Origin: a virus
Reading direction: 5' to 3' (one strand)
IMG/VR virus record: IMGVR_UViG_3300023179_008779
Span: 1-64,000 of that record
Length of the DNA stretch: 64,000 nt
Shown here: in pieces, positions 40,190 to 56,037 of the stretch
Layout: each line of letters starts with the position of its first letter
Numbering within the stretch: the first letter of the stretch is position 1
Notes under the pieces: generated by a model
The model's input: the letters and a program-made list of their open reading frames with translations, nothing else
The model's database searches: none
Told to the model about the DNA's origin: nothing
Program-made: the position numbers and the translations under genes

Positions 40190-43100
40190 ATGCGTATTGC
40201 TCACACAGCTGACATTCACATTCGTGCTCTTTCCCGTCATGACGAGTATCGAGAGACATTTCAAGACTTTATAGACGATTGTCGATCTCAGCGTGTGGAC
40301 CACATCTTCGTGGGCGGAGACATCTTCCACACAAAGACTACAGGCATCTCACCTGAGTACATTGACCTTTTGACCTGGTGGCTCAAGTCGATGGCTGAGG
40401 TTGCACCTGTGCATCTGATACTCGGAAATCACGACGGCAATCTTGTGAACGCGTCCAGACAAGACGCTGTGTCTCCCATTGTCGATGCATTGGGTGATGA
40501 CAGGATCAAGCTCTACAAGAAGAGCGGAGCCTACGAGTTGCAGCCCGGATACAGCCTCTGTGTCTTTTCAATCTTTGATGAGGACGGGTGGAAAGATGTC
40601 AGTCCCGTCGACGGCTCGGTAAACATTGCTGCATATCACGGACCTGTCTGGGGTAGCCAGACAGAGACTGATTGGCTTGTTGAAGATGGTATGCGGACGG
40701 GTTTTTTCGACAAGTACGACTTCACCCTGCTCGGTGATATTCATAAGAGACAAGATCTTCTACTGCGCGACGGGCGCCCGGTCATGTGTTACCCAGGTAC
40801 CCTGATCCAGCAGAATTATGCAGAAGAATTAGTCCACGGGTATCTTATCTGGGATATTCAGAGTTCTTTAGACTGGAACGTCGAGTTCAGGAAACTAAAG
40901 AACAGGAAGCCCTATGTGACTATTGATTGGTCTGGAAGCGTTGATGATACATTCACCGCTGCAAAGAGATATCCTAAAGGAAGTAGATTTAGATTCAGAT
41001 TTCATGAACATGTGACACAAGATGATGTCCACCTTCTGTCAGAGAAAGTAAAGACTGCACTTCATGCTACTGAAGTGACGTATAAGTCTGATGCCCCTCC
41101 TGAGTCACGTGTGTCTCTACTAGACTCTGACAGTGAGGACTTTGCAGAAGACATTAGGTCACCCGATGCAATTGTCAAGCTTATCAAAGAGCATCACAGT
41201 GAAAAAGAGATAAGTGATGAAGACTTACAGATCATCACTTCTCAAGTCAAGACTTGTCTCTCTGCGGCTTCTACGGGGGAAGAGGTAACAAGGGGTGCAA
41301 AGTGGACCCTGAATCACATGAAGTGGGATAACGTGTTTGTCTATGGAGAAGACAACACCATCGACTTTGATAAGCTCAAGGGTATCGTTGGGATATTTGG
41401 GCCCAACCGTATAGGGAAATCTTCGGTCGTTGGTACCATCATGTATTCACTATTCAACACGACTGATCGTGGTCCCATGAAGAACTTGCATGTGTGCAAC
41501 ATGAGGAAGCCGTACTGTTCTTCAAAAGTGATAATAACACACAATGGAACACCTTACGTGATTGAGAGACAGACGACTAAATCTACCAACCGCCGCGGCG
41601 TGACATCGGCTTCAACTGATCTCAATTTATACCGAATTCGAGAAGACGGAGAATTTGAAGACATGTGCGGCGAGCAGCGCAATGACACAGAAAAAACAAT
41701 CAGAAATTTGATTGGTAGTGCTGATGACTTTTTACTAACTTCCCTCTCTGCGCAAGGCGATGCAAATGCATTTATCTCACAGGGGTCATCGAAGCGCCGT
41801 CAGGTGCTTACTCGTTTTCTTGACCTAGATGTATTTGATCGTATGCATGACGTCGCAAGTAAGGACCTAAACCTTCTAAAGGGTCAATTGCGAAATTTCC
41901 CTGAGCGGGATTGGTCGACGCTGGAGAAGGGCAACAAGACTGAGCTTGCAAGTCTGACTGACCTACTTGACAGAATCAACAGTGTATTTGAAGAAAACCA
42001 AAGTCGACTTACAATGTTGCGCTCTGAAATGTCGACGCACAATGCTAAACCCGTGACCCAGCACGATGTTGAAGTGCAAGAAGAGAGAGTTTCTACTCTT
42101 GAAAAGAAGTCAGAAGACTGTACAGAGTTAATTGCAAACCTCACTGCTGAGAAGAATGATCTTGAGACGAAGCTCGATGCAATTGAGACTGTGATATCAC
42201 GATATGATGTCACCGCCTTAAAAAGAAAGCAAGATGCTCAACGCACGCTTGAGAAAGCAATAGTTGAACTTCGCCATTCTGCTGATCGTGAATTGACTAC
42301 TCTAACTCAGCAGAAGAAGTCTCTAAAGATATTAGACGAAGTTCCATGCGGAGACGATTATCCTACGTGCAAGTTCATCAAAGACGCTCATGGTATTAAG
42401 CTGAAGCTGTCTCAACAAGAGCAAGCTGTGACTCGGGCACAGGATGCCTTGAAAGAAGCTGAGACTGCAGCTGTAGCAGCTAAAGATGATACGATTGACG
42501 ATAAATTGTCAAAGCATGCTAAAGCTTCAGATCTTGCAGCAAAGTTGCGGTTAGAGATATCACGCAAAGAGACTGAACTTGAGCGCCAGAGATCTACTTG
42601 TGATTCATGCGGTTCTTCGCTCGATGAGGCAAAGAAGACGCTTGTTGCACTAAAGTCTGCCTTGAACGAGAAGGAGAGCAAGATCGTCTCAAGGATTAGG
42701 ATCGAGATGGACGAGATATCACGCAAGCTTAAAGCACTAGAAGAGAAGAAGATCACGGCAATCGACTCTCGTAGTAAGCTCAAAGCAATGATTGACAATC
42801 TGCGTGTCGAGAAAGAAAGACGAGACGAGCTGCTTGCAAAAATGAGAGTCCAAGAGCTTGTCTCTACTGCTTTTTCTAAGAAGGGCATCCCGATGCTTAT
42901 TACAAAGACTCAGCTGCCAAGGATCAACGCTGAGGTTTCTAAAGTCCTTCAAGGCATTGTTGACTTCACAATTGAGCTTGAGAATGATGAAGAGTCTGAT
43001 GCTTTGGAGATTTACATCAATTATGGTGACTCTAAGCGGGTTGTAGAGTTGTGTAGTGGCATGGAAAAGACGATTGCTTCAATCGCCCTCCGTGCGGCCA

Positions 43101-43327
43101 TGACCAACATCACCACACTTCCAAAACCTGACATCTTCATTATTGATGAAGGGTTTGGCACCCTGGACAATGCGGGCGTCGAGTCTTGTAATCGTCTTCT
43201 TGCATCGCTGAAGAATCAATTCAAGACTGTTGTAGTGATCACTCATGTCGATGGGATAAAGGACGCTGCTGATCACATCATTGAAATCACAAGAAATGAG
43301 AAAGATTCAAGAGTCGAGATAGCGTGA
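40190..43327 (+). CDS. Single-chain Mre11-Rad50 (gp47-gp46 / SbcD-SbcC) fusion
   Basis: 1045 residues. Residues 1-340 are an Mre11/SbcD phosphoesterase: 'RIAHTADIHIRAL', 'IFVGGDIFHTKT', 'LILGNHDGNLV', 'IAAYHGPVWG' and 'FTLLGDIHKRQD' supply all metal ligands. Residues about 395-1045 are Rad50/SbcC: Walker A 'GIFGPNRIGKSSVVG' (about 403), two coiled-coil arms around zinc-hook-like 'TCDSCGSS' (about 803), signature 'ELCSGMEKTIASIALRAAM' (about 952) and Walker B 'DIFIIDEGFGTLDN' (about 981). T4 encodes these as separate genes 47 and 46. The complex resects DNA ends for recombination-dependent replication and degrades host DNA. No stop or frameshift is seen at the junction. Confidence 0.93.
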   Translation: MRIAHTADIHIRALSRHDEYRETFQDFIDDCRSQRVDHIFVGGDIFHTKTTGISPEYIDLLTWWLKSMAEVAPVHLILGNHDGNLVNASRQDAVSPIVDALGDDRIKLYKKSGAYELQPGYSLCVFSIFDEDGWKDVSPVDGSVNIAAYHGPVWGSQTETDWLVEDGMRTGFFDKYDFTLLGDIHKRQDLLLRDGRPVMCYPGTLIQQNYAEELVHGYLIWDIQSSLDWNVEFRKLKNRKPYVTIDWSGSVDDTFTAAKRYPKGSRFRFRFHEHVTQDDVHLLSEKVKTALHATEVTYKSDAPPESRVSLLDSDSEDFAEDIRSPDAIVKLIKEHHSEKEISDEDLQIITSQVKTCLSAASTGEEVTRGAKWTLNHMKWDNVFVYGEDNTIDFDKLKGIVGIFGPNRIGKSSVVGTIMYSLFNTTDRGPMKNLHVCNMRKPYCSSKVIITHNGTPYVIERQTTKSTNRRGVTSASTDLNLYRIREDGEFEDMCGEQRNDTEKTIRNLIGSADDFLLTSLSAQGDANAFISQGSSKRRQVLTRFLDLDVFDRMHDVASKDLNLLKGQLRNFPERDWSTLEKGNKTELASLTDLLDRINSVFEENQSRLTMLRSEMSTHNAKPVTQHDVEVQEERVSTLEKKSEDCTELIANLTAEKNDLETKLDAIETVISRYDVTALKRKQDAQRTLEKAIVELRHSADRELTTLTQQKKSLKILDEVPCGDDYPTCKFIKDAHGIKLKLSQQEQAVTRAQDALKEAETAAVAAKDDTIDDKLSKHAKASDLAAKLRLEISRKETELERQRSTCDSCGSSLDEAKKTLVALKSALNEKESKIVSRIRIEMDEISRKLKALEEKKITAIDSRSKLKAMIDNLRVEKERRDELLAKMRVQELVSTAFSKKGIPMLITKTQLPRINAEVSKVLQGIVDFTIELENDEESDALEIYINYGDSKRVVELCSGMEKTIASIALRAAMTNITTLPKPDIFIIDEGFGTLDNAGVESCNRLLASLKNQFKTVVVITHVDGIKDAADHIIEITRNEKDSRVEIA

Positions 43328-43623: not shown

Positions 43624-44007
43624 ATGCCTAAGACGATCAACATCAACGCCCTTGGCCAAGCCATCGATACGACCTGGGGTCGCTCTTCAACACCACACAC
43701 GGCTTCATACTCAGTAAAGTTTACACTGTTGGGTGGTGACAGGATGCTGGCGTCTTACCAAGTGGTCACCAATTTCGTCTCTGAGAAAGAAATGATCCTT
43801 ATGAAGCGTCAATGTCAGCGGGAGTCTGATGACGTCATCGCAGAGCATGTTAAGGCTGTCAAAGAAACATACAGGCAGCTTACAGGAGATAGTCTCACCG
43901 TCAAAGAAGATAGCTCCACTGATTCTCTAGAGATCATTGGTTTCAATGTCCACAATCCAAAGAGGACGGCATACTTTCGTAAAAAGACTGTATTTGAGCT
44001 TGTATGA
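43624..44007 (+). CDS. Conserved small protein preceding terminase
   Basis: 127 residues, not recognised as a named family. CAGGAG lies just upstream of the ATG, and the stop overlaps the terminase ATG by 4 nt. The N-terminus 'MPKTININALGQAIDTTWGR' and 'DRMLASYQVVTNFVSEKEMI' suggest an alpha/beta protein. Its position directly before the large terminase could mean a packaging accessory, but it lacks a helix-turn-helix and does not resemble T4 gp16 in an obvious way. I leave the function open. Confidence 0.65.
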   Translation: MPKTININALGQAIDTTWGRSSTPHTASYSVKFTLLGGDRMLASYQVVTNFVSEKEMILMKRQCQRESDDVIAEHVKAVKETYRQLTGDSLTVKEDSSTDSLEIIGFNVHNPKRTAYFRKKTVFELV

Positions 44008-45638
44008 GTAGCAATCCGCAAGCCTCACCACCCATGTCTCGGCAGGCAATTGTCGCCGAGATCTTGAAGTGCGGCAGGAATCCTGTGTACTTCATGAAAA
44101 AGTACTGCAAGATCCAGCACCAACTTCGAGGACTAATACCCTTTGAGACCTATGACTTCCAGGATGACTGTGTCAACCAGTTTCAAGAGCATCGATTCAA
44201 CATAGTCCTCAAATCTCGCCAGTTGGGTCTCTCCACTGTCACGGCGGCATACTGCGTCTGGTACGCCATCTTCAAGAAGGACAAGAACATCCTCGTCATC
44301 GCGACGAAGCTTAACACGGCCATCAACTTCATCAAGAAGGTGAAGACGATGCTGGACTCTCTCCCGCAGTGGCTTCTTCTCACTAAGTTCGAACCCACAA
44401 AACAGTCAATAAGATTCACCAATGGGTCTACCATCACTGCAGTCCCAACTTCACCTGATGCAGGTCGTTCTGAGGCATTAGCACTGTTGATAGTAGATGA
44501 GGCAGCTTTTATTAGAGATTTTGATGAGATCTGGACGTCACTATACCCGACACTATCAACCGGTGGTTCTGCAATCATCCTTTCAACTCCGAATGGTGTG
44601 GGAGGACAATATTACAAATTGTGGATGGAGGCAGAGAGCGGCGCAAACGACTTCAATCCAATAAGATTGTCATGGAATGTCCACCCAGAGCATGATCAGG
44701 CGTGGTTTGAAAAAGAGACCAAGAACCTGCCAAAGAGGAAGGTTGCCCAAGAGTTTCTTTGTGACTTTATATCATCAGGTGACACGTTCCTACAACCCGG
44801 CGAATTTGAGAAGCTGAGGGGAATGCTTAAGCCACCCATAGAGAAACGCGGCCACCAAAATGGTGTGTGGGTGTGGTCTAAGCCTGAAGTTGGTAGAAAG
44901 TATGTTTTGTCAGCCGACGTCGCCCGCGGCGATGCTGCAGATTTCTCAACTTTTCACATCATCGACTATGATACATGTGAAGTTGCAGTCGAGTTTATGG
45001 GCAAGATACCTCCCGATAAATTTGCTGATATACTCAGTGAATATGGCAAAGAGTATAATGACGCCCTAATATGTCCTGAACAGAATACGTTCGGATATTT
45101 TGCTTGTGTGAAGCTTCGAGATATGGGATATCCAAGGCTATATTACCAAAATCACACAGGTGATGCTTATGAATATCACTCTATCAATCCCGACGCAATC
45201 CCTGGTTTTTCTACACAGACAAAGACCCGTACTCAAATTCTTGCCAAGCTTGAAGAGCTTGTAAGAAATGGGAAATTGCGCACCTATTCACAACGACTTT
45301 TTGATCAGCTTCAAGCGTTTGTTTGGAACGGATCAAAAGCCATGGCTTCTAAAGATGCTCACGACGATCTTATCATGAGCTTAGCGATCGGTACGTGGAT
45401 CGTTGCGGGTGATAGTTCATACAATGAAGCAGGTATGAATATGGCGTATGCAATCCTCAAGGCAACGCAGCGTGACAATAGAGGCGTCGAGACTCTACCC
45501 GGTGGCATCAACGATGTACGACCCGTACCAAATCCGCACATGCAAGGGATGACTCCCCAGAGTGTTTCAAGACCTCGACCGTCTGACCAGGCTGGTCATT
45601 ACGGAAACATGACAGATTATTCTTGGCTCTTAAAGTGA
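44004..45638 (+). CDS. 17: Large terminase subunit (T4 gp17-like)
   Basis: 544 residues. The ATPase half has the Walker A-like 'VLKSRQLGLSTVT' (about 68-80), Walker B 'ALLIVDEAAFIRD' (Asp165-Glu166) and coupling motif 'AIILSTPNG'. The nuclease half is RNase H-like: Asp306 in 'YVLSADVARGDAADFS', Glu360 in 'ALICPEQNTFGYF' and 'HDDLIMSLAIG'. It cuts concatemeric phage DNA and pumps it into proheads through the portal. The first 400 nt use many C/G-ending codons and the rest does not, an internal composition step worth noting. Next in order come a small gene and the portal; sheath and tube genes, which lie between gp17 and gp20 in T4, are not here. Confidence 0.95.
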   Translation: MSSNPQASPPMSRQAIVAEILKCGRNPVYFMKKYCKIQHQLRGLIPFETYDFQDDCVNQFQEHRFNIVLKSRQLGLSTVTAAYCVWYAIFKKDKNILVIATKLNTAINFIKKVKTMLDSLPQWLLLTKFEPTKQSIRFTNGSTITAVPTSPDAGRSEALALLIVDEAAFIRDFDEIWTSLYPTLSTGGSAIILSTPNGVGGQYYKLWMEAESGANDFNPIRLSWNVHPEHDQAWFEKETKNLPKRKVAQEFLCDFISSGDTFLQPGEFEKLRGMLKPPIEKRGHQNGVWVWSKPEVGRKYVLSADVARGDAADFSTFHIIDYDTCEVAVEFMGKIPPDKFADILSEYGKEYNDALICPEQNTFGYFACVKLRDMGYPRLYYQNHTGDAYEYHSINPDAIPGFSTQTKTRTQILAKLEELVRNGKLRTYSQRLFDQLQAFVWNGSKAMASKDAHDDLIMSLAIGTWIVAGDSSYNEAGMNMAYAILKATQRDNRGVETLPGGINDVRPVPNPHMQGMTPQSVSRPRPSDQAGHYGNMTDYSWLLK

Positions 45639-46022: not shown

Positions 46023-49000
46023 ATGGCAAAGAAGAACGAAAATCTATTTCAAAAGCTTACAAAGCTCTTCAAGAGCGGACCGGTAGTAAAGAGGAAGATA
46101 CGCAACCTCGATACTACCGTTGCAGTTCCTGATCGCACAAAGAGCTCTGGTGCCCTGCTCTTCCAGAAGTCGATGGCGCCAACTTATGCTACCATCACTG
46201 CAAACGCTTATAACCTCTCTGAGCGCCTGATGAGATACCAGGACTTTGCAGAGATGGAATACACAGCTGAGATTGCATCTGCAATGGATATCTACGCGGA
46301 TGAAACTTGCGCACAAGATGATAAAGGGCGCGTCCTTCACGTCTACTCTGACAATGAAAAGGTTAGAGAGATACTTGAGGAACTTTTCTACAACACGCTC
46401 AACGTCGAGTTCAACCTCCGATCATGGGCGCGCAACCTCCCTGTCCACAAGGACACGGTGATCCCACTTCTCAACGGGACTGAGATCACGATAGAGAATC
46501 TCTCGAAAAGGATGAAGGAAGACCCAGCCTGGGTTCCGTGGGTTTACTCCGTGCAGGACGGGACACACAGGCTGGTGCCCGGCAAGGTGACCTGGTGCGG
46601 CCTCACACGGAGAGACTCGGAGCTCGTCAGGGTGTGGCTGGACGACGGGTCGTACGTCGACTGCACGCCGGATCATGAGTGGATTCTTCGCGACGGCAGC
46701 AGGAAGAAGGCCGAAGATCTCGTCACCGGTGACAGCATGATGCCCCTGTATAGGGACGTCTCCTCGAAGAAGAAAGGACATCGTCTCGAGGGATACGAGA
46801 GGACGTACGATCCTGGTACTGGAAAGTACGAGTACACGCACAGGTTGGTGTCCGAGTCCGCAGTGCCGTCTCCCGAGAACTGGCACGTTGTTCATCATGT
46901 CAACTTCGATAAGCGCAACAATGCTCCCGAAAACCTCAGGAAGATGACATGGAAGGATCACAGCCTCCTCCACATGAAGTCGTCGGATACCCTCAAGCGC
47001 CCCGACGTCGTCGAGAAGAGGATGTTAGGCATCGACAGGTGGCTCAGGTCCGAAGAACACAGGGCGGTAGCCAAAGGACAACTAAAGAAGCTTCAAGCTG
47101 CCGGACTCATGAAGACGTCGTGGTCGGAGTACAACAAGTCTTCCCTCCACACGGATCACAACGCTGTCAGGTCGAAGTCGATGAAGGCTCACTGGTCGGA
47201 CGAGGGAAAGAAGGCCCGATGGAAGGCGTCTCTAACAATAAAGTTCGATGCACGATGCATCGACATGTTAGTCGATCGCCTCGAGCGTCTAGGAAAGTAC
47301 GTCAGCCCTGTTGTCCTCGGGTCTCTCCTCAAGGAGGACGAGGAGTTCATGGCCCACTTCAGGTCGATCAACGTCGCGACGGGCAGGGACCTGACCAAGT
47401 CACTGTCGAGCCACGCCGGAATCGAGTCCCTGCTCATGAAGGTCGGAGTTAGTTCTTATATCGGCCTCGTCAAGGATAGGCTTCCCACGATCGCGTCCAC
47501 ACCATGGTTCAAGCGAGCGGAGCGGAAGAGCCTCCGGATGACCGGCAAGGCTCCTGGTATGAGGAGCCGTCGATCGTCCCGAACGAAGGAGACGTCACCC
47601 GAGCCAGCCTATATGAACCACAAGGTAGACAGGGTAGAGAGACTGAGCAGCACATCGGACGTGTATTGCATGGAGGTGCTGGGGCCGACTGGGGAGCATG
47701 ACAGACATAACTTCATGGTGCTCACACGTTTCTCCGACGGCACAACCAACCTAAATAGTGGAATTTGTTCACAAAATTGTAAGTATGGTGACATGTTCCT
47801 CTACAACGACGTCTCTCCTGATCACGGAGTGATCAATGCATTTCCCATCCCCGTCAACGAGATCGAGCGGGAGGAGAACTACGATCCGAACGATCCCATG
47901 GCCGTTCGCTATCGTTGGGTCACCCTCGGCAACCGCACCCTGGAGAACTGGGAAGTCACGCACTTCCGCCTCCTCGGCAACGACATGTTTCTCCCTTATG
48001 GATCCTCCATCATCGAACCCGCCCGACGTATCTGGCGCCAGTTGATCCTCATTGAGGATGCAATGTTAGTGTATCGTGTCGTCCGTGCCCCAGAGCGCCG
48101 CGTCTTCTATATTGACGTAGCAAACATTCCTCCTGAAAATGTGCCGATGTACGTTGAGGAACAGCGGAAGAACCTCCGCTCTTCTCAGGTAATCGACAGG
48201 ACTACCGGTCGAGTTGATCTTCGCTATAATCCCCTATCTGTAGATGAAGACTATTTCATACCTGTCCGCGGCGGTGAGAGCGGCACAAAGATTGATACGC
48301 TTGCCGGTGGTCAAAATGCTGCAGCAGTTGAGGATGTAGCGTATATCCAAAAGAAGCTATTTGCTGCTCTTAAAATTCCCAGAGCGTATCTTGGATATGA
48401 CGAGGCGCTATCGTCAAAGGCAACTCTAGCTCAAGAAGACATAAGGTTCTCGCGTACCATCAACGTCATCCAGAAGACGATCATTTCAGAGCTTAACAAG
48501 CTTGCAATCATCCATCTGTACGCTCACGGATTCGATTCTGAGGACCTACAGAATTTCACACTTCGGCTTTCGAACCCGTCGACTGTCGCACAACAGCAGA
48601 AGCTTGAGTTGTGGAGAGCAAAGTTTGAGATTGCAGGCAGCGCTCCCGAAGGTCAGGTCTCGAAGGAGTTCATCCGTAAGGAGATCTGGGGTCTCAATGA
48701 AGAGCAGTGCAAACAGCTCGATGATCAACGACTCAAAGAGAAGCTTGTCGATGGAGCAATCGAGAATGCCAAACCTGATGAGGGTGGCGGTGAGGCTGCT
48801 GGTGGCGGTGAAGAGGCTGCTGGTGGCGGTGAAGAGTCGGGTGGCGACGAGGGCGGGGGCGATGATCTCTTTTCAGGTGATGACATCTCTCAGAAAGAGC
48901 CTGGTCTTGATCTTATTACTGCAGGGGATGACCCAGGTGATGATGAAGACTTCCCGGTCAAGTTCTCTGTATCAGATATTGAAGTACCCGTCAAGGCACA

Positions 49001-49397
49001 GCGTCAACTTGATAGAGCTCTTTACAACAGGTCGAGGATCAAACACAACGGTGCATCTAAGACCCACATGCCTGATTTCTTGAAGATGACGACCCAAAGT
49101 CGTCAATCGGATAATGATCCATATGATAGTGACTGGGTTTCTTCATATGTTCGTAATCCGTTCGGTGAATCGGTAGAGAGACGCACTGAGGTCTATAAGA
49201 CTCCCATCAGCAATGACGTTATCTCAGCGTTGAGGATGATGAGCCTGTCTAAGAAATTCCAGAACCTACCGCAACAAGGTCAGCCTGATGCCCCTGCTTC
49301 ACAAGTCTTGAATGAATCTATAGAAGAAGCAGATGCAAAAGAATTCAAGGAAGTATACGTGATAGATGAAGACGACGATCGGAGTGACGAAACATGA
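46023..49397 (+). CDS. 20: Portal protein (T4 gp20-like), interrupted in frame by an intein
   Basis: 1124 residues including a 446-residue intein (140-585); the spliced protein would be about 678 residues. N-extein: 'YATITANAYNLSERLMRYQD' and 'LRSWARNL'. C-extein: 'CKYGDMFLYNDVSPDHGVIN', 'RRIWRQLILIEDAMLVYRVV', 'APERRVFYIDVANIPPENV' and 'AYLGYDEALSSKATLAQED', all typical of gp20-family portals. The dodecameric portal starts prohead assembly and is the packaging motor's channel. The C-terminal region has a glycine/glutamate-rich repeat (residues about 922-950) before an acidic tail, unlike T4. The stop overlaps the next ATG by 4 nt. Confidence 0.94.
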   Translation: MAKKNENLFQKLTKLFKSGPVVKRKIRNLDTTVAVPDRTKSSGALLFQKSMAPTYATITANAYNLSERLMRYQDFAEMEYTAEIASAMDIYADETCAQDDKGRVLHVYSDNEKVREILEELFYNTLNVEFNLRSWARNLPVHKDTVIPLLNGTEITIENLSKRMKEDPAWVPWVYSVQDGTHRLVPGKVTWCGLTRRDSELVRVWLDDGSYVDCTPDHEWILRDGSRKKAEDLVTGDSMMPLYRDVSSKKKGHRLEGYERTYDPGTGKYEYTHRLVSESAVPSPENWHVVHHVNFDKRNNAPENLRKMTWKDHSLLHMKSSDTLKRPDVVEKRMLGIDRWLRSEEHRAVAKGQLKKLQAAGLMKTSWSEYNKSSLHTDHNAVRSKSMKAHWSDEGKKARWKASLTIKFDARCIDMLVDRLERLGKYVSPVVLGSLLKEDEEFMAHFRSINVATGRDLTKSLSSHAGIESLLMKVGVSSYIGLVKDRLPTIASTPWFKRAERKSLRMTGKAPGMRSRRSSRTKETSPEPAYMNHKVDRVERLSSTSDVYCMEVLGPTGEHDRHNFMVLTRFSDGTTNLNSGICSQNCKYGDMFLYNDVSPDHGVINAFPIPVNEIEREENYDPNDPMAVRYRWVTLGNRTLENWEVTHFRLLGNDMFLPYGSSIIEPARRIWRQLILIEDAMLVYRVVRAPERRVFYIDVANIPPENVPMYVEEQRKNLRSSQVIDRTTGRVDLRYNPLSVDEDYFIPVRGGESGTKIDTLAGGQNAAAVEDVAYIQKKLFAALKIPRAYLGYDEALSSKATLAQEDIRFSRTINVIQKTIISELNKLAIIHLYAHGFDSEDLQNFTLRLSNPSTVAQQQKLELWRAKFEIAGSAPEGQVSKEFIRKEIWGLNEEQCKQLDDQRLKEKLVDGAIENAKPDEGGGEAAGGGEEAAGGGEESGGDEGGGDDLFSGDDISQKEPGLDLITAGDDPGDDEDFPVKFSVSDIEVPVKAQRQLDRALYNRSRIKHNGASKTHMPDFLKMTTQSRQSDNDPYDSDWVSSYVRNPFGESVERRTEVYKTPISNDVISALRMMSLSKKFQNLPQQGQPDAPASQVLNESIEEADAKEFKEVYVIDEDDDRSDET
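46440..47777 (+). mobile_element. Portal intein, class-3-like, with HNH homing endonuclease
   Basis: 446 residues inserted between portal Leu139 and Cys586 ('ARNL' | 'CKYGD'). It begins with Pro, not Cys/Ser. Block B is 'DCTPDHEW' (intein Thr76, His79, Trp81 = His+2), block F is 'DVYCMEVL' with Cys410 in the position normally held by Asp, and block G is 'SGICSQN' followed by Cys+1. Trp in B and Cys in F are two of the three marks of class 3 inteins; the third, Thr in G, is Ser here. An HNH-type nuclease lies at intein residues about 147-178 ('WHVVHHVNFDKRNNAPENL', 'WKDHSLLH'). Codon use is richer in C/G-ending triplets than in most of the portal. Confidence 0.88.
48781..48866 (+). repeat. Gly/Glu-rich short repeats in portal C-terminal region
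   Basis: GGTGGCGGTGAG-type units recur three to four times, coding for G-G-G-E-x-A-A-G-like linkers. They probably form a flexible acidic linker and are prone to slippage-driven length change. Confidence 0.7.
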
Positions 49398-50248
49398 CTA
49401 CGAAGACCCATAATAAGAAGAGAAATAGCCTTCTCATGTACGAGTTTCTTGTCCGTACAATCTCAGAGTCTTTGATCGATGGCAATAAGAAGAAGTCAGC
49501 AATTGCGCTGCGGATATTGCGTCGCCATTACAAGCCTGACACAGAGCTATATAGAGAATTCAGGTTGATGAATGCTCTTGCAAAGACTACAGTTACTTCA
49601 GAGCATGTAGCTGCGTCTATACTCAGCGAGGCAAGGGCAGCAGCTATTGCACTCGATGAACACGCACTAGACCGAGAGAAATCTTTATTAATCAGGAACA
49701 TAAATCATAGTCTGAATGATGAGAATTTCTATGATCAACACGTCAATGAATACAGGACACTTGCTACCATACAGACTCTGATCAACGAGTGGCGATCAAG
49801 TGACAAAGACATCCAGCGTGTCGCACAATTTGAAGACGGGCTTATGAGGCACCTTATGTCTGAGAAGACACAAGGCAATGATTCAGTGATATCAGAGGAT
49901 ACAAACGGCACTGCACGCTTGTTGATGAAGGTCATGACTAAAAAGCTCAACGAAAAATATTCTGATGTCCTAAACGAGCATCAGCGTAGTCTCATCAAGG
50001 CGTATGCTTACTCGACTGCCTCTTCGGATCAGACGTCGATACGCATGAAGCTTCAAGAGATCAAGGGTCAGCTTCTTGGCCTCATTGATAATTACGCTCA
50101 AGAAAATTCAACAGACTACGTTAATCCAAAGCTCCGGGAGACAAGGGATGAGTTGGTGTCTGAGGGATTTGACGTTATCGATGATGAGACGGTAACAAGA
50201 TTCATGCTTTATTCGCGGCTCGCAGATGAGCTGTCATCCAAGGAGTGA
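49394..50248 (+). CDS. Conserved head-module protein between portal and protease
   Basis: 284 residues, mostly helical, family not named. 'NSLLMYEFLVRTISESLIDG' at the N-terminus, 'IDNYAQENSTDYVNPKLRET' and 'DDETVTRFMLYSRLADELSS' near the C-terminus. No catalytic motif. Translationally coupled to the portal (ATGA) and ending 4 nt before the protease start. In T4 this slot holds the small core proteins gp67 and gp68. A prohead core or assembly role is therefore a reasonable inference, though it is much larger than they are. Several L-x-E segments ('ILSEARAA', 'LVSEGFDV') could be protease sites. Confidence 0.68.
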   Translation: MTTKTHNKKRNSLLMYEFLVRTISESLIDGNKKKSAIALRILRRHYKPDTELYREFRLMNALAKTTVTSEHVAASILSEARAAAIALDEHALDREKSLLIRNINHSLNDENFYDQHVNEYRTLATIQTLINEWRSSDKDIQRVAQFEDGLMRHLMSEKTQGNDSVISEDTNGTARLLMKVMTKKLNEKYSDVLNEHQRSLIKAYAYSTASSDQTSIRMKLQEIKGQLLGLIDNYAQENSTDYVNPKLRETRDELVSEGFDVIDDETVTRFMLYSRLADELSSKE

Positions 50249-50252
50249 TACA

Positions 50253-50867
50253 ATGGCACAGGACCTTAGACTACTCAATTCGTACGAAGTCTTCGATTAC
50301 ACTCCTGACATGATCAGGGAATCGAGGGAGAAGAACAACGGAAAGGTTGTCATGCGTGGCATCCTACAGAAGGCCGACACCCTCAACCAGAACGGTCGCA
50401 TCTATCCAATTGCCGTCCTCGAGAGGGAAGTAAGGAACTATCAGAAGTTTATTGCTGAAAATAGAGCACTAGGCGAATTAGACCACCCAGACTCCTCAGT
50501 TGTCAACCTCAAGAATGTTTCTCACATGGTCAGAGAAGCCTACCTGGAGAAGGGCGTCGTCTACGGATCTGTCGAGCTTCTCGACACACCCAGCGGCAAG
50601 ATTCTGCAGTCTCTCGTCGAGAGCGGTGTGAAGCTTGGTATCTCATCGCGCGGAGTTGGATCCACCAAGAAGCAAGGTGATTACCACGTTGTACAGGACG
50701 ACTTTCAGCTCATCTGCTGGGATTATGTCTCAGAGCCTTCGACACCAGGTGCGTTCATGCTGCCTGAAGGCAAGCAGATTAGTTCGCACGAGCTGAAGGC
50801 AATTTTCAACAAGAGCGATCGTATTGACCGTATTGTTAACGATATTTTTGCCTCGAGGAAGCGATGA
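50253..50867 (+). CDS. 21: Prohead core maturation protease (T4 gp21-like, U9/S78-type)
   Basis: 204 residues from the ATG at 50253, 7 nt after AGGAG; a longer reading from 50226 overlaps the previous gene. Family motifs: 'DTLNQNGRIYP', 'LGELDHPDSSVVNL' with catalytic His78, and 'SGVKLGISSRGVGS' with catalytic Ser131/132. This serine protease is built into the prohead, activates itself, and then cuts scaffold, capsid and internal proteins at L/I-x-E|A/G sites. Many proteins encoded nearby have such sites close to the N-terminus, which fits its expected substrate set. The stop overlaps the next ATG (ATGA). Confidence 0.93.
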   Translation: MAQDLRLLNSYEVFDYTPDMIRESREKNNGKVVMRGILQKADTLNQNGRIYPIAVLEREVRNYQKFIAENRALGELDHPDSSVVNLKNVSHMVREAYLEKGVVYGSVELLDTPSGKILQSLVESGVKLGISSRGVGSTKKQGDYHVVQDDFQLICWDYVSEPSTPGAFMLPEGKQISSHELKAIFNKSDRIDRIVNDIFASRKR

Positions 50868-54186: not shown

Positions 54187-56037
54187 ATGAAGTATTTTAG
54201 TCTAGATCATCTTGCCGCAGGTATCCGCGACAAGCACGTCGGCGCCGAACGCGCCAGACTCACGGAGAAGTGGTCCCGCACGGGTCTTCTCCGCGGCCTC
54301 GACGGCACCCGCCGTGAGACCATGGCCCAGCTCCTGGAGAACCAGGCAGCACAGGTCCTCAAGGAGAACTCTGCTCTGTCCACCGGCGGTGGTAACCTCG
54401 CCGGCTCCGGTCAGCTCCAGGGCTTCAGCAACATCGCCTTCCCGATCGTCCGCAGGGTGTTCGGCGGCCTCGTTGCCAATGAGCTCGTCTCGATCCAGCC
54501 AATGAGCCTCCCCTCTGGCCTCATCTTCTACCTCGACTACACCTACGGCACGAACGTCGGTACGCCAGCAGGCGGCTCCGGTTCGACCTACACCAAGGGT
54601 CAGTCGGTCTATAACAACCCAACCGGCAAGGGCGTCCAGTCGGGCTCACTCGCAACCGGTGGTATGTACGACCTCGTCAACACGGGCTACTCCCGCGTTA
54701 CGGGTTCTGCCACGGGCCTCACGGTCACGGCGTTCGGTTCTTGGGGCGGCGCAAACGCAACGTCCTGGGTCAACGGCCAGCTCCTGACCTCGGACACGGA
54801 CTTCTCCGGTTCGAACGCCCGCTTCGCAGACTTCGACTCGCAGGTCCAGACCGCACTCGCAAACGATGACCTTGATGCAGCATTCGCAGTCATCCCGCTC
54901 TCTTCCCTCACCAACATGGACAAGCTCGCATTCAACCAGCTCTCCGTGTTTGCCGGCACGTTCGCAAACTGCACGGCATGGGGCGAGACCTACCAGGGTG
55001 GCACGGGCGTCCTCAACCTCCGCCGCCTCAACAAGCGCGGTAACTGGTCGGCCGGCGTATTCACCCCCGATGCACTGAACGGTACCCACGTCCTAACGCT
55101 CGTCAAGGGCGCAAACAACGCGGCAATCTCCGGCACAGTCGCCAGTGTCGCATACTCGATCTCCACGTCCCTCTCGGTCGACGGCAACGTTGGTTCGACC
55201 ATCACGGTCCCATCGTTCGAGTCTGACTTCTCGACCAACCCATCCCCCGCAATCCCCGAGATCGACATCAAGATCGAGGCAATCTCGATCACGGCCGAGA
55301 CCCGGAAGCTGCGTGCAAGGTGGAGCCCCGAGCTCGCACAGGACCTCAACGCGTACCACAGCATGGACGCCGAGGTCGAGCTCACCTCGATCCTCTCCGA
55401 GCAGATTGCTCTCGAGATCGACCGCGAGATCCTCAACGACCTCGTCTCCCAGGCAAACGGCGCCAACTACTACTGGAGCCGCAGCCCAGGCCGCTTCGTG
55501 GACAAGGTCACCGGCGCACGCCAGAACATGTCGAACTCGTTCCAGATCGGTCCGCAGTTCACCGGTACTGTCCGTGAGTGGTACGAGACCCTCATCGAGA
55601 CCGTCATCGACGTGGCAAACACCATCCACCGCAAGACCCTCCGCGGCTCCGCGAACTTCATGGTCACGGGCCCAGACGTCTGCACCATCCTCGAGGCTTC
55701 GGTTCTCTACAAGCCCAAGTTCTCGATCGACGGTGAGGGCCAGGTCGCCTCTCCCTTCACAGTGGGCGCCGAGGCAATCGGCACGATCAGCAACCGCTTC
55801 ACGGTCTACAAGGATCCTTACTTCAGCCGTAACAAGATCCTCGTGGGCTACAAGGGCGGCAGCTACCTCGAGACCGGCTACGTATACGCACCATACGTGC
55901 CGCTCATCGTGACGCCAACAATCTTCGCACCTGAAGATTTCACACCCCGCAAGGGCGTAATGACCCGGTACGGGAAGCGTACTGTCCGTAGCGATTTTTA
56001 CGGGACCGTCACCGTGCTCGACATGAACGTGATATAG
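54187..56037 (+). CDS. 23: Major capsid protein (T4 gp23-like)
   Basis: 616 residues with a TAGGAG site. 'MAQLLENQAAQVLKENSAL' matches the delta-domain end of gp23, with V-L-K-E|N as the likely but atypical cleavage point. Then come 'FSNIAFPIVRRVFGGLVANE', 'SIQPMSLPSGLIFYLDYTYG', 'RKLRARWSPELAQDLNAYHS' and the C-terminal 'TPTIFAPEDFTPRKGVMTRY', all canonical HK97-fold gp23 segments. It is about 95 residues longer than T4 gp23. The extra length probably lies in the Gly/Ser/Thr-rich region around 130-350, which may carry an added surface domain. Codon use is extremely biased to C-ending triplets, as for a very highly expressed gene. An intrinsic terminator follows. Confidence 0.95.
   Translation: MKYFSLDHLAAGIRDKHVGAERARLTEKWSRTGLLRGLDGTRRETMAQLLENQAAQVLKENSALSTGGGNLAGSGQLQGFSNIAFPIVRRVFGGLVANELVSIQPMSLPSGLIFYLDYTYGTNVGTPAGGSGSTYTKGQSVYNNPTGKGVQSGSLATGGMYDLVNTGYSRVTGSATGLTVTAFGSWGGANATSWVNGQLLTSDTDFSGSNARFADFDSQVQTALANDDLDAAFAVIPLSSLTNMDKLAFNQLSVFAGTFANCTAWGETYQGGTGVLNLRRLNKRGNWSAGVFTPDALNGTHVLTLVKGANNAAISGTVASVAYSISTSLSVDGNVGSTITVPSFESDFSTNPSPAIPEIDIKIEAISITAETRKLRARWSPELAQDLNAYHSMDAEVELTSILSEQIALEIDREILNDLVSQANGANYYWSRSPGRFVDKVTGARQNMSNSFQIGPQFTGTVREWYETLIETVIDVANTIHRKTLRGSANFMVTGPDVCTILEASVLYKPKFSIDGEGQVASPFTVGAEAIGTISNRFTVYKDPYFSRNKILVGYKGGSYLETGYVYAPYVPLIVTPTIFAPEDFTPRKGVMTRYGKRTVRSDFYGTVTVLDMNVI

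Follow-up and report, generated by a model that had tools for sequence, protein, structure and literature searches.

How does an intein that begins with a proline start to splice, and from which inteins does it descend? These questions are raised by a portal gene in virus record IMGVR_UViG_3300023179_008779, which comprises 69,249 bases; a part of it, a stretch of 64,000 nt (the window), was analysed. The T4-like portal gene (gp20) lies at 46023..49397 on the + strand, as do all of its parts given below, and runs as a single open frame of 1124 codons with an in-frame intein inside. Its product matched Pfam Portal_T4 (2.2e-70) and PHROG 213, portal (1.3e-65). The genes for the terminase large subunit (44004-45638), the head maturation protease (50226-50867) and the major head protein (54187-56037) are located near it; i.e., terminase, portal, protease and major head protein around the intein form a T4-like head gene set. 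The window also contains, at 40190-43327, a 1045-residue ORF with an SbcD-like match at residues 1-362 and an SbcC-like match at 300-1043, an apparent SbcD-SbcC fusion.

Portal relatives were fetched from viral contigs with the C-extein, and the best 80 of 169 were kept (L001-L080). The insertion site of the window was empty in all of these 80. The N-extein match ran up to the junction and stopped at residue 139 (RNL), and the C-extein match began at residue 140 or 141 with 0 extra bases; the motif right after RNL in the empty relatives was [C/V]KYGD. The N-extein thus comprises portal residues 1-139 (46023..46439; the codon of Leu(-1) is CTC), the intein 446 residues (46440..47777) and the C-extein positions 47778..49397, with the best Portal_T4 stretch at residues 641-906 of the ORF product. 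The two extein matches also abut in Microcystis phage Mel-JY01 and in four Flavobacterium immuto records. In an AlphaFold model, Pro1 (CCT, 46440..46442) and Asn446 aligned with the first and last residues of solved inteins, e.g., M. tuberculosis RecA and the class 3 intein 6BS8. A chance reading frame was excluded by the 80 empty sites, and a wrong junction was dropped, as the predicted structure and the empty sites agree. The preliminary description had placed an intein with an HNH nuclease in the portal gene at 46440-47777 and had left its boundary, at Leu-Pro or Pro-Val, to be judged on homologous portals. The open frame, the Portal_T4 and HNH_3 matches and the empty sites bear out both the intein and its exact junctions, and with them the absence of an N-terminal nucleophile. 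A scan with two intein families found this to be the sole intein place in the 69,249-base record.

The first residue of the C-extein, Cys+1 (TGT, 47778..47780), is portal residue 140; this position holds Cys in 17 of the 80 empty-site relatives and Val in the other 63. Splicing requires Cys, Ser or Thr at this position, and portal alleles with Val140 may be immune to the window's intein. Among the best-80 loci, 28 full inteins were found at two other portal sites, 80/81 in 26 and 75/76 in 2; residue 1 was Cys in all of them except L048, which has Ser1. A 484-kb uncultured phage (L082; LR756508.1 143737-152297) carried three portal inteins at other sites and was empty at the window's site.

Translation confirmed the numbering given earlier for the active-site residues, i.e., His79-Glu80-Trp81, Cys410 in VYC and Ser444-Gln445-Asn446. 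Block B (T76-P-D-H79-E-W81) lies at 46665..46682, the HNH_3 endonuclease domain (intein residues 132-175) at 46833..46964, block F (DVYC410MEV...GEHDRHNF, residues 407-425) at 47658..47714 with Cys410 (TGC) at 47667..47669, and the end of block G (Ser444-Gln445-Asn446) at 47769..47777. HNH_3 was matched in the portal ORF and intein with Pfam E-values of 6.4e-9 to 1.9e-8; that is, an HNH domain is located between blocks B and F of a HINT domain, the arrangement of an HNH homing intein. The NCBIfam intein_Nterm match was over its cut-off, and the Pfam Intein_splicing match (3e-6) was under that family's gathering score. NCBIfam RtcB_rel_intein2 (NF052663) also matched the window intein (1.9e-26), which points to kin in RtcB-like genes. 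The G+C content was 0.562 in the intein versus 0.493 in the exteins.

For the window intein with ten extein residues per side, AlphaFold predicted a HINT fold (pLDDT 87.5), for which the NrdJ-1 split intein (8UBS) was the best solved match by fold (Z 20.4, rmsd 1.9). NrdJ-1, a class 1 intein, lacks an HNH domain, and the match covers only the splice domain. A natural 213-residue intein (L125) was also predicted to adopt the HINT fold (83.1), again with NrdJ-1 as the nearest solved chain (Z 20.7). Class 3 chains gave Z 15.7 to 16.6 against both models, although these chains are shorter, which lowers Z. The median dN/dS was 0.094 in the splice domain (167 pairs) versus 0.18 in the middle part (169 pairs); purifying selection is stronger on the splice domain.

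When viral contigs were searched with the window intein as a single sequence, no relative was found, whereas an alignment to which class 1 portal inteins had been added as rows recovered relatives from the viral contigs. The full-length relatives share the window's site (RNL or RNT, then Pro; Asn, then CKYGD) and are approximately 39-62% identical to the window intein, the best being approximately 61% by tblastn. In a 16-row alignment with the window as one row (A2), Cys410 and Asn446 were present in 16/16 rows and Pro1, which aligns with Cys1 of class 1 relatives, in 15/16. I8-P-L-L11, W52-C53, His79, G415, E419, D421-R422-H423 and F425 were also invariant and Thr76 nearly so. Profiles of the two splice halves were then run over all fetched loci, and 277 N/C pairs were reduced to 239 and finally to 195 unique inteins. 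All counts exclude pairs that scored below 40 bits for the N half or 8 bits for the C half or whose end was unclear; the Pro1 rows seen in L099 and L101 were lost in this way, as were some Cys1 rows. A block B pattern for CTPDHEW gave 18 stretches, which served only as supplementary input to the mining.

One scan of genome contigs yielded two loci, one of them with a portal of the window's kind in a Wolfebacteria MAG contig. Named phage records yielded no Pro1 member, with 0 and 1 records covering at least 80% of the query. The single record was that of Aphanizomenon phage CL131, which has Cys1 and Cys at block F position 4 (Cys F:4). Its intein (L329, MG209611.1) lies in a dCTP deaminase gene that is annotated just as dCTP deaminase. 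Two of the weaker named-phage matches, Bacillus phage SP-15 and Streptococcus phage GXN1, have Cys1 with Asp F:4.

The states of residue 1 and F:4 in the 195 unique inteins were Pro/Cys in 65 (the window included), Cys/Asp in 81, Cys/Thr in 19, Cys/Cys in 17, Ser/Asp in 8, Cys/Asn in 4 and a gap at residue 1 with Asp in 1. That is, F:4 was Cys in 65/65 Pro1 inteins, whereas it was Asp in 89, Thr in 19, Cys in 17 and Asn in 4 of the 129 Cys1/Ser1 relatives. A +1 nucleophile was present in all 65 Pro1 inteins (Cys 58, Ser 6, Thr 1). The position of Trp81 (B:12) was more variable: Tyr in 33, Phe in 21, Trp in 9, and Ile and Val in 1 each. Trp81 falls in a subgroup of the family in which Trp is common, with Phe or Tyr there in most relatives; class 1 inteins also carry a large hydrophobic residue at this place, according to a passage of PMC7891396. 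At G:5, Leu was found in 32, Val in 27 and Ser in 6 of the 65, and Thr in 0. The penultimate residue (G:6) was Ser in 45, Lys in 7, Ala in 3, Met in 3, Gly in 2, Thr in 2, Gln in 2, Val in 1 and His in 0, compared with His in 95/129 Cys1/Ser1 rows. In ten Pro1 inteins of 175-331 residues, much or all of the nuclease is gone and the splice blocks are kept.

The marks of the family are therefore Pro1 and Cys F:4, and Trp is not a signature. The preliminary description had taken Trp at His+2 as a class mark and had read Ser in place of Thr and Gln in place of the penultimate His as departures from class 3. All three residues are indeed present here; nevertheless, Trp occurs in just 9/65 members, and Ser at G:5 and a residue other than His at G:6 are ordinary family states; the class 1 portal inteins at site 80/81 have Ser at G:5 as well. 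As Trp is unfixed and neither Thr G:5 nor a penultimate His was seen in the 65 Pro1 inteins, the W-C-S combination is not a relic of the Trp-Cys-Thr (WCT) triad. Nor is the portal insertion, which had been thought to look unusual with a W-C-S triad, an isolated case, since 58/65 unique Pro1 inteins occupy the same portal site (the window's own truncated locus and L260 included). Of the remaining seven, six share a second portal site, which follows LRYNPL or a similar sequence, and L143 occupies a third. A common origin of all 65 Pro1 sequences is probable, and hence the 65/65 association of Pro1 with Cys F:4 does not represent 65 independent events. A group with Cys1 and Cys F:4 (block F TGC.(N/T)V; L173, L186, L106, L258, L085, L104 and L107) was found after (L/M)RYNPM, a portal site that hosts Pro1 inteins in other phages. 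One portal ORF (L173/L091, IMGVR_UViG_3300010379_000183) contains five consecutive intein-like pairs of N and C splice domains, whose states at residue 1 and F:4 are mixed.

We compared the window intein with the published class definitions. The definition of WCT class 3, as it appears in passages of PMC3196547 and PMC5222942, agrees with the window intein at residue 1, Cys F:4 and Trp B:12 and disagrees at G:5, where Thr is found in 0/65 Pro1 sequences versus 14/14 WCT comparators. A looser definition, worded in PMC7891396 as no Cys at residue 1 together with Cys F:4, describes Pro1 and Cys410. Class 1, which requires Cys, Ser or Thr at residue 1, does not accommodate Pro1. The window intein should be kept apart from WCT class 3, since it lacks Thr G:5 and its kinship lies elsewhere. 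It is a real, exactly bounded intein that, judged from its sequence, is most likely class-3-like.

Fifteen WCT comparators were collected, with TerL of Mycobacterium phage Baka and a series of tblastn searches as sources; L326 was set aside as it has Cys1 with Gly at F:4. The 14 used came from named phages and showed Thr-His-Asn in 14/14 and Trp in 13/14. A class 1 HMM was built from 12 non-redundant rows with a nucleophile at residue 1 and without Cys F:4. The 65 Pro1 splice domains scored a median of 134.5 bits on this HMM versus 13.4 on that of WCT class 3, class 1 being higher in 65/65, a comparison that is not blind because the class 1 set came from searches begun with the Pro1 family. 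With hhalign, the family aligned with class 1 portal inteins over 317 columns, HNH part included (E 1.6e-37), and with WCT class 3 over 28 columns only. An A2 profile search of PDB sequences, which is blind in this respect, returned NrdJ-1 (7.3e-8, the best solved match) and DnaE (1.2e-5); the 52 matches listed (E up to 10) included no class 3 chain. The same database searched with the window intein alone gave weak matches, many of them chance matches to BamA. LAGLIDADG_3 was detected in 12/13 WCT comparators scanned, and HNH_3 in 21/34 rows of alignment A3 (31 family and 3 class 1 rows). A canonical class 3 intein whose WCT triad has degraded is thus not supported, as the HMMs, hhalign and the endonuclease type all point elsewhere.

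One close resemblance was to the class 1 HNH inteins at portal site 80/81 of related T4-like phages (L007, L043, L072 and others), which share full-length homology, including HNH and linker, as well as Ser G:5; they differ in Cys1 or Ser1, Asp F:4, a penultimate His and the site itself. WCT class 3 inteins (MP-Be DnaB, Dra Snf2, M. smegmatis DnaBi1, M. chimaera DnaB1 and mycobacteriophage TerL) resemble the window intein in the lack of a residue-1 nucleophile, Cys F:4, His B:10, the terminal Asn, the +1 nucleophile and the HINT fold (VIA Z about 16). However, the window's family is remote from them in sequence, lacks Thr G:5 and the penultimate His, has no fixed Trp and carries HNH rather than LAGLIDADG. 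The split class 3 intein AceL NrdHF (6ZGQ), as presented in part of PMC7891396, is also similar in its deviating triad (M-C-T) and in the lack of a penultimate His, and splices via Cys F:4; unlike the window intein, it is split, keeps Thr G:5 and has no in-frame HNH. Its Z was 16.2, and it was not among the PDB profile matches listed. Pro1 alone is not new, because Pro is also the first residue of a WCT class 3 intein, that in TerL of Mycobacterium phage Bexan (L318).

A pattern that we assumed for the canonical class 3 block B, TA[DE]HRW[LF], was rejected as a class 3 finder: it gave 49 stretches, and those readable as inteins were Cys1. Seven of these were used as Cys1-WCT comparison rows. 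Six phage inteins among them (L274, L276, L278, L280, L285 and L291) combine Cys1 with the full Trp-Cys-Thr triad, and L269 has Cys at G:5; such Cys1-WCT inteins are possibly another type of intermediate between class 1 and class 3.

Trees were calculated with the columns of five traits removed, which left about 150 columns; tree 1 contained 128 of 210 rows and tree 2 contained 82 after thinning. WCT class 3 was one clade (support 98/97 in tree 1 and 100/100 in tree 2). The Pro1 rows formed another together with four Cys1/Cys F:4 rows (in tree 1, 82/80 with 40 rows and 99/96 with 38 of these; in tree 2, 99/93 with 22 rows), and its neighbours were Cys1 inteins with varied F:4. The phylogeny envisaged earlier thus separates the two groups; nonetheless, a clade uniting the Pro1 family with WCT class 3 was not rejected by AU tests (p 0.18 in tree 1, 0.395 in tree 2), and neither was one of the Pro1 family and the Cys1-WCT inteins when the class 3 rows were omitted (p 0.153). 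Therefore, a separate origin rests on similarity and architecture rather than on a decisive tree.

The four Cys1/Cys F:4 rows (L092, L250, L255 and L257) occupy the window's portal site and nest inside the Pro1 family. They share with the window intein the block F motif ExDRHNF and the lack of a penultimate His but have Cys1, and hence both possible first nucleophiles together. Their nesting suggests either a Pro1 to Cys1 reversal or repeated loss of Cys1, although Pro1 as one clade without them was not rejected (p 0.144). Conservation of Cys F:4 need not mean that it is used as the first nucleophile, because these Cys1 relatives keep it too. Within the Pro1 clade (tree length 17.8), 0 changes at F:4 were counted, where the rate outside the clade would predict 2.9 (P about 0.05). 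A change from Cys to Pro requires that two bases be replaced; the path may have led through Ser (TGY to TCY to CCY), which some inteins of these portal genes have at residue 1.

In our main reading, to which we assign a probability of roughly 75%, the window carries a homing intein of T4-like portals that would splice in a class-3-like manner and belongs to a Pro1/Cys F:4 family derived from class 1 HNH phage inteins, apart from WCT class 3. Pro1 occupies the place of the class 1 nucleophile and cannot make the first attack, as its side chain is not nucleophilic. We propose that His79 and Thr76 would strain the Leu(-1)-Pro1 bond and that the Cys410 thiol would attack the Leu(-1) carbonyl, giving a thioester branch at Cys410. 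The N-extein would then pass to Cys+1 by transthioesterification, cyclisation of Asn446 would free the intein without a penultimate His, perhaps aided by D421-R422-H423, and an S-to-N shift would yield the portal ...RNL-CKYGD.... A start of splicing at the block F Cys, as proposed in the preliminary description, is the best reading of the residue counts (Pro1 with Cys F:4 in 65/65 versus Cys F:4 in 17/129 Cys1/Ser1 inteins). Two published observations are in line with such a scheme: AceL NrdHF, a class 3 intein with an altered triad and no penultimate His, splices well in the account of PMC7891396, and passages of PMC5222942 and PMC7891396 report the class 3 Thr to be dispensable at small to moderate cost and Cys F:4 not to be. 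Empty portal alleles with Cys140 are presumably the targets into which the HNH nuclease spreads the intein. A Cys1 ancestor probably had Cys F:4 already, and the loss of Cys1 would then have given the first step to Cys F:4.

We considered three other explanations. The intein might be a member of the monophyletic WCT lineage whose triad has eroded to W-C-S. Trp B:12, Cys F:4, a non-nucleophilic residue 1 and the Pro1 of the Bexan TerL intein would fit, the AU tests allow a joint clade, and Hoffmann et al. (PMC7891396) mention, in one passage, rare deviations at the W and T positions. However, Trp in 9/65 and Thr G:5 in 0/65 Pro1 inteins, the low class 3 score against that of the class 1 model, the 28 hhalign columns, the difference in endonucleases and the well-supported WCT clade of its own make this unlikely. 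A class 2 route, in which Cys+1 attacks Leu(-1)-Pro1 directly and Cys410 merely tunes the active site, would also suit a non-nucleophilic residue 1 followed by Cys+1, and Cys F:4 is kept by Cys1 relatives as well; we regard it as still less likely, as +1 is Ser or Thr, poorer nucleophiles than Cys, in 7/65 Pro1 inteins and as Cys F:4 in 65/65 would be left unexplained while relatives vary there.

The least probable explanation, which we consider very improbable, is that the intein is splicing-defective in this phage, the portal gene being a pseudogene or the portal being supplied by another copy. The lack of the penultimate His and of Thr G:5 could be read in this manner, and a second portal copy is possible because the record is a 69-kb virus contig. 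T4-like portals are essential, however, and the frame is open throughout, the same active-site set is found in 65 unique sequences with a splice-domain dN/dS near 0.09, and relatives with a shortened nuclease retain the splice blocks. Returning to our main reading, we lean towards the view that T4-like portals hold a second, independent class-3 lineage that is marked by Pro1 and Cys F:4, in which Trp, Thr and the penultimate His are unfixed and which is most closely related to class 1 HNH inteins found in these portal genes.

The main interest lies in the family revealed by the window intein. Mycobacteriophage portal inteins are already described in a passage of PMC5050341; in the literature searched, with most subscription journals outside it, we found no account of a Pro1/Cys F:4 portal intein family. 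Hoffmann reported 1701 class 3 inteins under a definition which, as worded in PMC7891396, would fit this family, and that set may contain relatives of it. The origin of class 3 is an openly argued question. Tori and Perler, in a passage of PMC3196547, held class 3 to be monophyletic with one phage origin; Beyer et al. (PMC7664689) reported that grafting WCT did not make a class 1 intein splice as class 3 and proposed a different ancestry. The family would broaden the recognition rule for class-3-like inteins past WCT, and its HNH-bearing and shortened natural versions are available for protein ligation work. Members with Cys1/Cys F:4 and with Pro1/Cys F:4 at one portal site represent natural intermediates, in which the switch is testable residue by residue. 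If our reading is true, they would record a natural passage from class 1 to class 3, possibly a reversible one, against a monophyletic or a separate protease-like origin of class 3.
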